Source: Corynebacterium sp. TAE3-ERU12 (GTDB lineage: Bacteria; Actinomycetota; Actinomycetes; Mycobacteriales; Mycobacteriaceae). From it: 64,000 bases of DNA. The position numbers were made by a program, and so were the translations under genes. Location of the stretch: assembly GCF_019209905.1 (NCBI RefSeq), contig NZ_JAHUTM010000003.1:1-64000 (forward strand), written 5' to 3'. Numbering within the stretch: the first letter of the stretch is position 1; the number at the start of each line of letters is the position of its first letter. Of the stretch, positions 395 to 60,366 are shown piece by piece. The notes below the pieces were generated by a model. It saw only the letters and a list, made by a program, of their open reading frames with translations. It did not search any database and had not been told where the DNA came from.

Positions 395-1660
395 TTAACG
401 GGTATGCCTACGCACATCTGCACCAAGTTCACACAACGTTTCCACGAACCGCGGATAGCCACGATCAATGTGGTAGACATCGTGCACTTCGGTCTGCCCA
501 CCAGGCTCTGCACACAAACCGGCAAGCACCAAACCAGCCCCAGCGCGAATATCCGATGACCACACCGGAGCAGACGACAACGCCTGCTTACCGCGAATCA
601 TCACATGGTGACCATCAATCGTTGCGTCCGCACCCAGGCGAATCATCTCGTCAACGAAGCGGAAGCGCGACTCGAAAACATTCTCCGTCAACACGCTCGA
701 GCCCTGACTCACCGCTGCCATCGCAATGGCCATCGGCTGCAAATCCGTCGGAAAGCCCGGGAACGGCAACGTCTGATAGTTCAACGAATGCGGAGCCTCG
801 GTTCCACGAACACGGAAACCCGTCGGGAAAGACTCCACCTGCGCACCAGCAACACGCAGCTTCTCCAGCGGAAGATGCAGGTGAATGGGGTCAATACCAC
901 CGACGGTGATATCACCGCGCGTCATTGCGGCGGCATAGGCCCACGTACCAGCAACAATCCGGTCGCCCACCACCTCATGCTCAGTAGCGTGCAACGAATC
1001 GACGCCCTCAACGGTGATGGTGTTGGTACCCGCACCGGAAATGCGCGCGCCCATCGCGCAGAGCATATTGCACAGGTCCACAATCTCCGGCTCTCGGGCA
1101 GCGTTATCCAAGGTGGTCACACCGTCGGCAAGCACCGCTGCAGTAAGAATATTTTCGGTGGCACCAACCGACGGGAAGTCCAGCACAATCGCAGCACCCT
1201 GCAGCCTTGCCGCCTGGGCAACCACACAACCATGCTCGATCCGGGTGGTCGCACCCAGGCGCTCCAACCCAGACTGGTGCATATCCAAAGGACGCGAACC
1301 AATAGCGTCACCACCAGGAAGAGCAACAACAGCTTCACTGCACCGCGCAGTCAGCGGGCCGAGCACACAAACTGAGGCGCGGAACTGGCGCACAGCCTCA
1401 AAATCCGCACGCGAGGAAATCTCGCGCGGCACCGTGATCGCAACAACATCGCGATCCCGCTCCACCTGGCAGCCAAGGCCCTCGAGCACATTCTGCATCA
1501 GGGGAACATCATCGATATCGGGGCAATTGCGCAGCACCGTAGTGCCTTCTGCGAGCAGCGCAGCGCCCATCAACTTGAGTACAGAGTTCTTAGCCCCGGT
1601 AACGCGCACCTGGCCCTGAAGCCGAGCGCCGCCACCGACGAGGAAAATTTCGGCAGTCAC
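395..1660 (-). CDS. murA: UDP-N-acetylglucosamine 1-carboxyvinyltransferase MurA
   Basis: Catalyses transfer of enolpyruvate from PEP to UDP-GlcNAc, the first committed step of peptidoglycan precursor synthesis, in the cytoplasm. The 421-residue protein has full family length and the GAKN motif near residue 22 with the substrate-binding Lys-Asn. The active-site loop reads LPGGDAIGSRPLD: residue 118 is Asp where most bacteria have the PEP- and fosfomycin-reactive Cys. The same Cys-to-Asp replacement is known in mycobacterial MurA and makes the enzyme insensitive to fosfomycin. The gene lies upstream of an rRNA leader, as in mycobacteria. One copy of the 11-base repeated word lies inside it (1123-1133). 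Confidence 0.97.
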   Translation of the reverse strand: MTAEIFLVGGGARLQGQVRVTGAKNSVLKLMGAALLAEGTTVLRNCPDIDDVPLMQNVLEGLGCQVERDRDVVAITVPREISSRADFEAVRQFRASVCVLGPLTARCSEAVVALPGGDAIGSRPLDMHQSGLERLGATTRIEHGCVVAQAARLQGAAIVLDFPSVGATENILTAAVLADGVTTLDNAAREPEIVDLCNMLCAMGARISGAGTNTITVEGVDSLHATEHEVVGDRIVAGTWAYAAAMTRGDITVGGIDPIHLHLPLEKLRVAGAQVESFPTGFRVRGTEAPHSLNYQTLPFPGFPTDLQPMAIAMAAVSQGSSVLTENVFESRFRFVDEMIRLGADATIDGHHVMIRGKQALSSAPVWSSDIRAGAGLVLAGLCAEPGGQTEVHDVYHIDRGYPRFVETLCELGADVRRHTR

Positions 1661-1700
1661 GGTCTAAACACAACCACAAAAGCAGCGTCGGGGCCCACTG

Positions 1701-58021: not shown

Positions 58022-58968
58022 TACTTCAGAGCAGCCCGACGCTGTCGCGCGAATTCGGACAGGGTGACACCAGCCGCGACGGAGGCATTGAGCGACTCCA
58101 CACCAGCCGACATCGGGATCGAAATGATGGTGTCGCAGGTCTCCCGGACGAGGCGGGACAGGCCCTTGCCTTCAGAACCGACCACCACGACCGTGGGGGT
58201 GGTGCCATCGTAATCGTCGAGGGTGCAGTCCCCACCGGCGTCGAGACCAACAACCTGGTAACCAGCCTTCTGCAATTCCTTCAGGCTACGCACCAGGTTG
58301 GTGGCACGGGCGACGGGAAGGCGTGCCGCCGCACCAGCGGAGGTACGCCAGGCCACACCTGTCACCGCAGCGGAGCGACGCTCCGGGATGACCACACCGT
58401 GGCCACCGAATGCGGCTGCGGACCGGATAACCGCACCGAGGTTGCGTGGGTCGGTGATGTTGTCCAGACAGACGATCAGGCCCGGGCGCCCCGAGGACTC
58501 TGCACGCTCCAGCAAGGTCTGCACATCGGCGTACTGGTACGGCGGAATCTGCAGGCCAATTCCCTGGTGCATGGAGTTGCCGACCATCTGGTCAAGCTCA
58601 TGGCGCGGCAATTCAGTAATGGCAATGCCCCGGTCGCCGCAGACACGCACTGCCTCAGTCAGCCGCTCATCATTATCGGTGCCCAGTGCGACAAACAACT
58701 GGGCCGCGGGGACCTTCGCCCGCAGGCATTCGACAACTGGGTTGCGGCCGACAACAAGCTCAGGGCCTTCCGGCTTTTCGTGGCGGCCCTGGGCGCGCCG
58801 ACGCTGCTCCATTTTGCGCTGGTGGGCCTTGTGGTAGACGCGATCTTCGGCCTTAGGGGTGGGCCCTTTGCCGCGCAGGCCACGCCGACGGGCGCCGCCA
58901 CTACCGGCTTCGGGGCCCTTCTTATTGGTTTTACGGGTCGCGCCTTTGCGCTTGGAATTGCCTGCCAT
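58021..58968 (-). CDS. rlmB: 23S rRNA (guanosine-2'-O-)-methyltransferase RlmB
   Basis: SPOUT methyltransferase of 315 residues. An Arg/Lys-rich N-terminus (1-65) precedes the substrate domain; the knot motifs are NITDPRNLGAVIRSA, VVVGSEGKGLSRLVRE and IPMSAGVESLNASVA. Expected to modify G2251 of 23S rRNA, although other SpoU targets cannot be excluded. Follows cysS directly, a conserved actinobacterial pair. Confidence 0.93.
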   Translation of the reverse strand: MAGNSKRKGATRKTNKKGPEAGSGGARRRGLRGKGPTPKAEDRVYHKAHQRKMEQRRRAQGRHEKPEGPELVVGRNPVVECLRAKVPAAQLFVALGTDNDERLTEAVRVCGDRGIAITELPRHELDQMVGNSMHQGIGLQIPPYQYADVQTLLERAESSGRPGLIVCLDNITDPRNLGAVIRSAAAFGGHGVVIPERRSAAVTGVAWRTSAGAAARLPVARATNLVRSLKELQKAGYQVVGLDAGGDCTLDDYDGTTPTVVVVGSEGKGLSRLVRETCDTIISIPMSAGVESLNASVAAGVTLSEFARQRRAALK

Positions 58969-60366
58969 TTAGTTCTCCTCGCCGGACAGCGCCCACTGTG
59001 GGCCGTCCGGGGTGTCAGTGACCTCAATGCCAGCATGTGCCAGCCGGTCGCGTACCGCATCGGCAGTTGCCCAATCCCGCTCAGCACGGGCGGCAGTACG
59101 TAATTCAAGTTGTTCCTGGACCAGGATATCCAGCGCGCGGTGGGCGCCATCATCATCGCTGCTGGCACTGGCCCACTGCTCAGCGCAGGGGTCAAAGCCC
59201 AAAATGGCGCACATGGCGCGCACCTGGCCGGCGACCTGTGTCGCCTCGGCGGAACCGTCGGCAAGCAACTGATTGCCACGGCGCACCGCATTGTGGATCT
59301 CCGCCAGCGCCCGCGGCACCGCCAAATCAGCATCCATCGCAGCACTGAACTCGGCAGTCGGCTCGCCGATGGCGACGGCACCAACGCGCTGCAGGAATGC
59401 CTCGATCCGGCGGTAGCCGGCTGCGGCCTCCTTCAGGGAATCCTCCGAGTACTCCAACACACTGCGGTAATGAGCGCTGCCAAGGTAGTAGCGCAGCTCC
59501 ACCGGGCGCACCATCTCCAGCATGTGGTCCACCGACAGCACATTGCCCAACGACTTCGACATCTTCTCGCCAGCCATGGTCACCCAGTGGTTATGCATCC
59601 AGTACTGGGCGAAACCATCACCGACCGCATGGGACTGGGCGATCTCGTTCTCATGGTGCGGGAACTGCAGATCCAACCCGCCACAGTGAATATCGAATGT
59701 GGCGCCCAAATAGTACGTAGCCATCGCCGAGCACTCGAGGTGCCAACCGGGGCGACCAGCACCCCACGGGGTAGGCCACGACGGCTCACCCGGGCGGGAA
59801 GCCTTCCACAGGGCGAAATCATGCGGACCGCGCTTACCACGCGACTCCGGCTCCCCCTGCTCCATCTCAGCAACCCGGTTACCTGAGAGATGGCCGTAAT
59901 CAGAATCCTGCGCAGCCGACCAGGCAGCCACATCGAAGTAGACCGAACCGTCGGCAGCGTAGGCGAAGCCAGCGTCGATAAGCCGCTGCATGTACTCCAC
60001 CATCTGGGTGACGTGGCCAGTAGCGCGCGGCTCAATACTCGGCGGGATGACCCCTAAGAGGTTATAAGCATCAGTGAAGGCACGCTCGTGGGTAGACACC
60101 CACTCCCACCAGGGCCGACCATTTTCAGCGGCCTTGGTGAGGATCTTGTCATCAATATCGGTGACATTGCGCACGAAGGCAACGTCATATCCCTTAGCTT
60201 CCAACCAGCGCCGCAGAACATCAAAAGCGACGCCAGAACGCAGGTGGCCGATATGCGGCTTGGCCTGCGGAGTGGCACCGCATAGATACACCGACGCATG
60301 GCCTTCGCGTAGCGGTGTGAAGTCCCGCAGCGTGCGGGTGGCGGTGTCGTAAATCTGGAAAGTCAC
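58969..60366 (-). CDS. cysS: Cysteinyl-tRNA synthetase
   Basis: Class I synthetase of 465 residues. HIGH motif in QAKPHIGHLRSG, KMSKS in GEKMSKSLGN, zinc ligands from VYLCGATP, ECSAM and GGLDLQFPHHENE. GTG 60366 is chosen because TATGCT lies seven bases upstream (leaderless) and the sequence VTFQIYDT matches the family start; ATG 60378 is the alternative. First gene of cysS-rlmB-methylase-nuclease. Confidence 0.96.
   Translation of the reverse strand: MTFQIYDTATRTLRDFTPLREGHASVYLCGATPQAKPHIGHLRSGVAFDVLRRWLEAKGYDVAFVRNVTDIDDKILTKAAENGRPWWEWVSTHERAFTDAYNLLGVIPPSIEPRATGHVTQMVEYMQRLIDAGFAYAADGSVYFDVAAWSAAQDSDYGHLSGNRVAEMEQGEPESRGKRGPHDFALWKASRPGEPSWPTPWGAGRPGWHLECSAMATYYLGATFDIHCGGLDLQFPHHENEIAQSHAVGDGFAQYWMHNHWVTMAGEKMSKSLGNVLSVDHMLEMVRPVELRYYLGSAHYRSVLEYSEDSLKEAAAGYRRIEAFLQRVGAVAIGEPTAEFSAAMDADLAVPRALAEIHNAVRRGNQLLADGSAEATQVAGQVRAMCAILGFDPCAEQWASASSDDDGAHRALDILVQEQLELRTAARAERDWATADAVRDRLAHAGIEVTDTPDGPQWALSGEEN

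Follow-up and report, generated by a model that had tools for sequence, protein, structure and literature searches.

Why should a single 11-base word recur 22 times in the first 64,000 nucleotides of contig NZ_JAHUTM010000003.1 from Corynebacterium sp. TAE3-ERU12, and almost always in the same reading frame of different genes? This stretch (the window) carries exact copies of CGTCGGCAAGC from 1123 to 59266, 16 on the forward and six on the reverse strand, where 0.13 would be expected from dinucleotide shuffles and 0.11 from an order-3 Markov model; no other 11-mer of the window is as over-represented. We propose that the word belongs to a genus-wide DNA-level recognition motif which likely functions as a DNA uptake sequence, and, judging from its distribution and by analogy with known systems, we would give the uptake role a probability of roughly 0.55.

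The excess extends to the genome as a whole. In its 2,216,457 bases, assembled in six contigs with the window at the start of contig 3, the word occurs 257 times in forward and 271 times in reverse orientation, i.e., 528 copies as against two of the reversed word used as a control. Likewise, a 464 kb sample of the genome, comprising the window and 20 stretches of 20 kb, holds 92 copies where 0.8 are expected. Thus, the over-representation claimed in a preliminary description of this DNA stands: the signal in the window exceeds what base composition and codon use would yield, and the genome-wide count that it had proposed as a check is far from expectation. The fixed 11-mer of that description has given way to a gapped motif with dialects, of which the word is the form favoured by one species. 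Single changes to CGTCGGCAAGC are strongly enriched at positions 6, 7 and 9, with a weak excess at position 11 and counts near expectation elsewhere; the enriched motif reads C(G/A)TCG-NN-A-N-GC, or GC-N-T-NN-CGA[C/T]G on the other strand, and CGTCGNNANGC is present in 334 copies against 35 expected. In the reading frame that most copies share (xxG-CTT-GCC-GAC-Gxx, encoding Leu-Ala-Asp and hereafter called the main or LAD frame), the free positions of the motif change the amino acid, and the fixed positions are partly silent and partly not. Therefore, the pattern of tolerance appears to belong to a recogniser and not to the protein.

The shared frame had been presented as a property of every copy but one, and within the window 21 of the 22 copies do lie in the LAD frame of an open reading frame (ORF), the exception being that at 50473. 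Over the 464 kb sample the preference remains strong, with 66 of the 81 genic copies in the main frame, but its strictness proves to be partly an accident of the window: six genic copies occupy other sense frames and nine are antisense. One orientation is common to 72 of the 81, and 11 of the 92 copies fall outside called genes, at least two of these in genes missed by our simple caller. In a relative (G100) the main frame accounts for 168 of 244 genic copies in 20 stretches, one of them largely masked. Known uptake sequences likewise favour one orientation within reading frames, according to an excerpt of PMC2346458.

Neither composition nor codon use explains these copies. One hundred synonymous-codon shuffles of the called genes in the sample yielded 2.0 copies on average and never more than six, against the 81 observed, and on these counts both explanations were rejected. 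A codon-pair model, named in the preliminary description as a possible means of overturning the observation, left it intact, predicting 8.3 CTT-GCC-GAC triplets where 75 were found; even this expectation is inflated because the motif itself contributes to the pair counts. The codon CTT is used in 85 of 163 Leu-Ala-Asp tripeptides, as against 163 of 1,291 Leu-Ala pairs without a following Asp. A translation-level signal, also suggested earlier, was rejected in view of the antisense, other-frame and intergenic copies and of a comparison between two relatives of different dialect, in which GAC and GAT are exchanged at nearly all retained sites. As for the frame itself, silent rewriting to GCNTNNCGACG by one to three changes is possible at 634 places, of which 320 lie in the main frame, so the preference is largely that expected of a DNA-level mark under protein constraint. 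With Leu-X-Asp and silent third positions, the word would cost the protein little in this frame.

To what extent is the motif shared? We counted CRTCGNNAAGC in 242 genomes of the genus with the reversed pattern as the control, and classed genomes by the ratio of the two as positive (at least 5), intermediate (2 to 5) or background (below 2). By this measure 180 genomes are positive, 17 intermediate and 45 at background; the positive genomes have a median of 1,135.5 copies, with a maximum of 2,032 and a lowest count of 242, and the exact word of our genome ranges from 0 to 603 copies. The motif is abundant in C. tuberculostearicum SK141 (1,039 copies; control 61), C. curieae (961; 68), C. lemuris (919; 72) and sp. 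MSK130 (1,067; 82), reaches only 150 (67) in sp. TAE3-ERU16, and stands at 107 (119) in C. jeikeium and 93 (71) in C. suicordis. Counts of such named relatives match those of surveyed genomes, C. tuberculostearicum SK141 equalling G220, and on this the attribution of the survey to Corynebacterium is based. In 13 genomes of other genera it occurs at 0.2 to 1.8 times the control, and in a survey of 298 genomes of the order, 293 of them outside the genus, none beyond Corynebacterium exceeds about 2.1 times the control by our reading. As far as the order was sampled, the motif is thus restricted to Corynebacterium. Its copy numbers fall within the range of the DNA uptake sequences (DUS) of Neisseriaceae, given as 943 to 5918 per genome in the accessible part of PMC3630211.

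Different species favour different forms: GCTTATCGACG in G010, GCTTGACGACG in G005, GCTTGTCGATG, GCTTATCGATG and GCTTGACGATG in G004, and GCTTGCCGATG in sp. MSK130, each from a sample of that species; the top words of the samples from G007, G011, C. jeikeium and C. suicordis include no such motif word. (The G010 sample also has ATCGAGCCGTT nine times in 80 kb, with 0.08 expected.) The principal division is at the second position. Of the 180 positive genomes, 14 have 79 to 98% of their motif copies in the CATCG dialect (CATCGNNAAGC), and the others at most 24%. In a tree built from the ComEC proteins of 40 genomes, ten of them CATCG users, these users fall in two groups and supported branches force two dialect changes: CATCG may have been gained twice, or gained once and then reversed on the G219 lineage. 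The same tree has 12 motif-free species, whose scattered placement forces at least four changes, and our genome is the sister of the motif-free G206. G219 and similar genomes retain CATCG forms in about 11–17% of their motif copies, more than most other CGTCG users; these may be left over from an earlier switch away from CATCG, or reflect a more tolerant reader.

Sites are also respelled in place. Between G219 (CGTCG) and G001 (CATCG), 155 kb could be aligned, with an identity of 82%; of 74 G219 sites, 62 fell within the alignment and 12 outside it. At the aligned sites G001 has the CATCG form in 35 cases, keeps CGTCG in two and has neither in 25; conversely, of the 84 aligned G001 sites G219 has the CGTCG form at 35, CATCG at five and neither at 44. 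Outside the motif, CGTCG reads CATCG in G001 in 130 of 501 instances (26%), and the difference is highly significant (35 vs 2 against 130 vs 335; Fisher P 3e-16). A site of either dialect is retained at 37 of 62 positions, as against 25% of 1,418 permuted-word sites (P 2e-8), and position 2 of the motif is identical in just 24% of cases where the surrounding positions are at 63 to 94%. Hence, the sites retained by these two species stand at the same places but are, for the most part, spelled in the dialect of each. The same is visible in the purL gene of the window (site 25499): our genome, C. tuberculostearicum, C. curieae and sp. ACRPO have GCTTGCCGACG, and sp. MSK130 has the CATCG dialect form GCTTGCCGATG. 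CTG codons are found at this site in C. jeikeium (GCTGGCCGATG), in C. suicordis and the motif-positive C. lemuris (CCTGGCCGATG), and in sp. TAE3-ERU16 (TCTGGCCGACG).

These observations show that the motif is kept up as DNA, through selection or drive, and we infer a sequence-specific reader that the mark tracks. Among the roles put forward in the preliminary description, an uptake signal fits best; a role in translation finds no support, and the candidates in chromosome segregation and Chi-type recombination lack the polarity expected of them. The closest parallel is provided by the uptake sequences of Neisseriaceae and Pasteurellaceae, with which the motif agrees well in its copy number, dispersion, dialects and preferred frame. 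As to dispersion, the two orientations are nearly balanced (257 vs 271 copies in our genome), showing no general strand bias, and neighbour spacing is random and Poisson-like, with a coefficient of variation of 1.04 over 265 sites that represent 16 enriched forms. Briefly, the following mechanism is plausible. A surface DNA receptor tied to a Tad pilus and a ComEA/ComEC channel would bind the motif and thereby favour the import of DNA from close relatives. Molecular drive is the theory invoked for the accumulation of copies: word-rich DNA, once imported, would be over-represented among recombined DNA, and copies would build up. Dialects, in turn, would arise when the specificity of the reader changes.

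Genes for such machinery are present. ComEC was matched in 241 of 242 genomes of the genus; a ComEA model matched in all 79 genomes examined, 74 of them over the cut-off, and the TadE-like protein of the helicase/secretion neighbourhood in all 80 examined, 79 over the cut-off. A cluster of TadZ, TadA, TadB, TadC, Flp, TadE and TadE2 genes with a divergent DECH helicase gene is complete in our genome, where the Tad/Flp cluster lies at L013:11665-18747, and in each of seven other positive genomes examined; the cluster adjoins the helicase gene in the Corynebacterium genomes read on both sides. For comparison, com genes are required for the transformation of Micrococcus luteus. In this actinobacterium Flp pili made by tad genes are essential as well, as stated in the available text of PMC4322843. 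The reading frame of ComEC varies from 462 to 822 amino acids (aa) across the 40 genomes of the tree, with no clear tie to the motif.

Several points, however, weigh against the uptake role. ComEA and ComEC are near universal and the uptake genes fail to separate motif-positive from motif-free species; thus, the ComEC, ComEA and Tad genes of our own genome, which are equally present in motif-free species, are non-discriminating, and a complete Tad cluster is also found in five motif-free genomes scattered over the tree. As discriminators, the presence of ComEC, ComEA, TadB/C (T2SSF domain) and the TadE-like protein were each rejected, as none of them splits the positive genomes from the negative ones. 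At E 2e-8 or below, T2SSF is matched in 28 of 28 positive, eight of 11 intermediate and 13 of 40 negative genomes, a pattern which by our reading largely tracks deep clades. Apparent gene losses in three genomes of intermediate copy number do not count as proof: G185 is without a ComEC match (its genome being 90% complete); G124 has a TGA inside ComEC, no separate TadB match and a long TadC frame that may be a fusion; and G157 is without a T2SSF match, a case that is uncertain because its Tad locus runs off the end of a contig. A split ComEC match is moreover seen in G091, a highly positive genome. In ComEA (39 of 40 genomes), Flp, TadC, TadE and TadE2 there is no residue common to both CATCG groups and absent from the CGTCG users, and the one column of ComEC that separates the dialects in both groups is unremarkable. 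Among the papers listed by our literature searches, none reported natural transformation in Corynebacterium. It is because the uptake genes fail to discriminate that our confidence stays near one half.

The sites themselves add three further points of this kind. Sites of the window were kept in six of 87 site-by-species comparisons, and in five of 40 for the exact word, over larger divergence and with motif-free species included; the sites therefore also turn over. Close inverted pairs of the terminator type, as in Haemophilus, are not evident: 14 neighbour pairs among the 265 sites lie within 80 bases, of which four are opposite-oriented, the nearest at 33 bases start to start. Such pairs are common among known uptake sequences without being a requirement. 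Finally, codon-atypical genes show no depletion of the motif, the quartiles of codon use having 6.4, 6.5, 6.7 and 5.6 sites per 10 kb. Since the density is flat across these quartiles, depletion in foreign DNA rests on one stretch, positions 400001–420000 of contig 1 (L017), with one motif site against 11.9 expected (P 9e-5), which was chosen among 21 stretches after the counts were known. Its translations indicate genes for non-ribosomal peptide synthetase/polyketide synthase, thioesterase and ABC-transporter proteins, and these look like a siderophore cluster of foreign origin.

What else might read such a motif? The copies could be binding sites of a nucleoid, chromosome-organisation or DNA-modification protein whose specificity changes between species. 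In-place respelling demands no more than a sequence-specific reader with many sites, and the uptake proteins tested did not reveal the reader; yet the on/off pattern among species, with 45 of 242 genomes at background, and the random, non-polar spacing are ill-suited to a core function of the chromosome, sites of DNA modification do not as a rule show enrichment, and the motif is asymmetric. We regard this alternative as unlikely, if far from negligible. Less probable still is a Chi-like hotspot of recombination or repair, read as single-stranded DNA by the helicase-nuclease AdnAB. Chi sites, too, are short and frequent, and each of the 54 genomes examined has PDDEXK_1 proteins, including an adjacent pair in our genome (frames of 1,069 and 1,140 aa) which we take to be AdnAB. 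However, PDDEXK_1 frames of about 1,000–1,200 aa occur in motif-free species too, RecC is absent from all 54 genomes, the excess of 92 against 0.8 far exceeds that of Chi in Escherichia coli, and a dialect difference at 82% DNA identity would be unusual for Chi.

The strand counts also speak against a Chi-like role. We examined polarity in one complete chromosome, that of G100, taking the contig start as the origin, with which the GC skew mostly agrees; dif was not located. Here the word occurs 227 times on the leading and 190 times on the lagging strand, close to the orientation of the genes (57% of gene bases leading), and sites outside the main frame or in uncalled regions are divided 105 to 100. 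In this chromosome we found no replication polarity proper to the word, such as the Chi-type and chromosome-segregation roles suggested earlier would lead one to expect. Hence, a polar guide for FtsK, akin to the FtsK-orienting polar sequences (KOPS), is most improbable in spite of the many dispersed, asymmetric copies, since the word follows gene direction only; equally far-fetched are composition alone and a preference for CTT-GCC-GAC at the level of codons, codon pairs or translation, explanations which the common frame might suggest and which the shuffles, the codon-pair model, the antisense and intergenic copies, the GAC/GAT dialects and the amino acid changes at the free NN positions all contradict.

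The copies in the window are listed below, with genes labelled by NCBIfam matches at E 1e-20 or Pfam matches at E 1e-5.

Table. Exact copies of CGTCGGCAAGC in the window, with the strand of the word, the gene or ORF around it and its frame.
Position	Strand	Location	Frame	Remarks
1123..1133	+	murA (395..1660, - strand)	LAD	
14255..14265	+	mycothiol synthase gene (mshD)	LAD	
15737..15747	-	ORF 15102..15848	LAD	no NCBIfam match at E 1e-20
17196..17206	+	aminodeoxychorismate lyase gene	LAD	
17244..17254	+	aminodeoxychorismate lyase gene	LAD	second copy, same gene as 17196
17589..17599	-	YgfZ/CAF17-like gene	LAD	
21544..21554	+	ORF 21215..21658	LAD	148 codons, SCP_3 domain
25499..25509	+	purL	LAD	codon 525
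30355..30365	+	oligopeptidase B-like gene	LAD	NCBIfam match under curated cut-off
31128..31138	+	purC	LAD	CATCG form at same place in sp. MSK130
34885..34895	-	ORF 34580..35443	LAD	no NCBIfam match at E 1e-20
38088..38098	+	purB	LAD	
38346..38356	+	purB	LAD	second copy
39426..39436	+	TrkA_N gene (39349..40089)	LAD	
41703..41713	+	purD	LAD	GARS domains
44011..44021	+	thiamine-pyrophosphate enzyme gene	LAD	
46634..46644	+	ORF 46527..47003	LAD	no Pfam match at E 1e-5
50473..50483	-	no called gene	not LAD	sole such copy; local ORF without Pfam match
52908..52918	+	LacI-family regulator gene	LAD	
54088..54098	-	ZnuA-type binding-protein gene	LAD	
54199..54209	-	ZnuA-type binding-protein gene	LAD	second copy
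59256..59266	+	class I tRNA synthetase (C) catalytic-domain gene	LAD	cysS type

Other words are in excess as well. The palindromic 8-mers CGATATCG and ATCGCGAT occur 24 and 16 times in the window against 6.5 and 2.9 expected, and GGGCATGCCC six times against 0.18. In Corynebacterium sp. HMSC05H05 the 11-mers TGTGGCAAATA, GGCAAATATTT and TTTGCCACATT are found in four copies each in 22 kb, which suggests a palindromic repeat family unrelated to the motif.

Among the papers listed by our literature searches we found no report of the Corynebacterium motif, which does not establish its absence from print; a search on the word itself gave primer-like or unrelated matches among those listed. Three Corynebacterium genomes have been analysed for spaced motifs, and the portion of PMC5217627 available to us reports only pairs belonging to clustered regularly interspaced short palindromic repeats (CRISPR). 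The extract of PMC12616744 names Neisseriaceae and Pasteurellaceae as the sole families known for uptake sequences. If the uptake role is correct, Corynebacterium would have a DNA-uptake language of its own, the first among Actinobacteria and evolved independently of both known proteobacterial languages: about three-quarters of the sampled species would be tagged with a gapped word, close species would use different dialects, a change of reader would have rewritten hundreds of sites in place, and a barrier to gene exchange between species would result. To this wider reading we give even odds. This would be a third independent case, implying that such languages evolve repeatedly. Natural transformation would then be expected in this genus, which has a mycomembrane and includes commensals, pathogens and industrial strains, and the co-evolution of reader and word could be tested directly in close relatives that differ in dialect, for instance G219 and G001. 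Even with a reader unconnected to uptake, one would have to explain a mark that occupies as many as about 2,000 sites and is spelled differently at the same places in different species.

Against this backdrop, the motif can be set beside the known families of dispersed words. Chi sites, read by RecBCD or AddAB, resemble it in being short, frequent, over-represented and asymmetric, often in one reading frame; unlike them, the Corynebacterium motif has no replication polarity of its own in G100, goes without RecC, and shows dialects and a patchy presence in the genus. KOPS and other architecture-imparting polar words are similarly dispersed and asymmetric, with about eight fixed bases, whereas the motif lacks polarity toward the terminus in the chromosome of G100. 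The competence pili of Neisseria are type IVa pili, and Corynebacterium differs in being an actinobacterium with a Tad/Flp cluster. Its motif is also gapped, unrelated in sequence to the DUS and free of terminator-type inverted pairs. The uptake signal sequences of Pasteurellaceae are likewise unrelated in sequence, and in Haemophilus the copies often pair as terminators (available portion of PMC5217627), which the Corynebacterium sites do not. In common with the motif, however, they are distributed at random, without general orientation bias in the genome and with a frame preference (excerpt of PMC2346458), and fall into a few dialect types (extract of PMC12616744). With the DUS of Neisseriaceae the motif shares a length of about 10–12 bases, dispersed copies numbering in the hundreds to thousands, species dialects with a common core and relatives that are without it (accessible part of PMC3630211), as well as the favouring of one orientation in reading frames (excerpt of PMC2346458).

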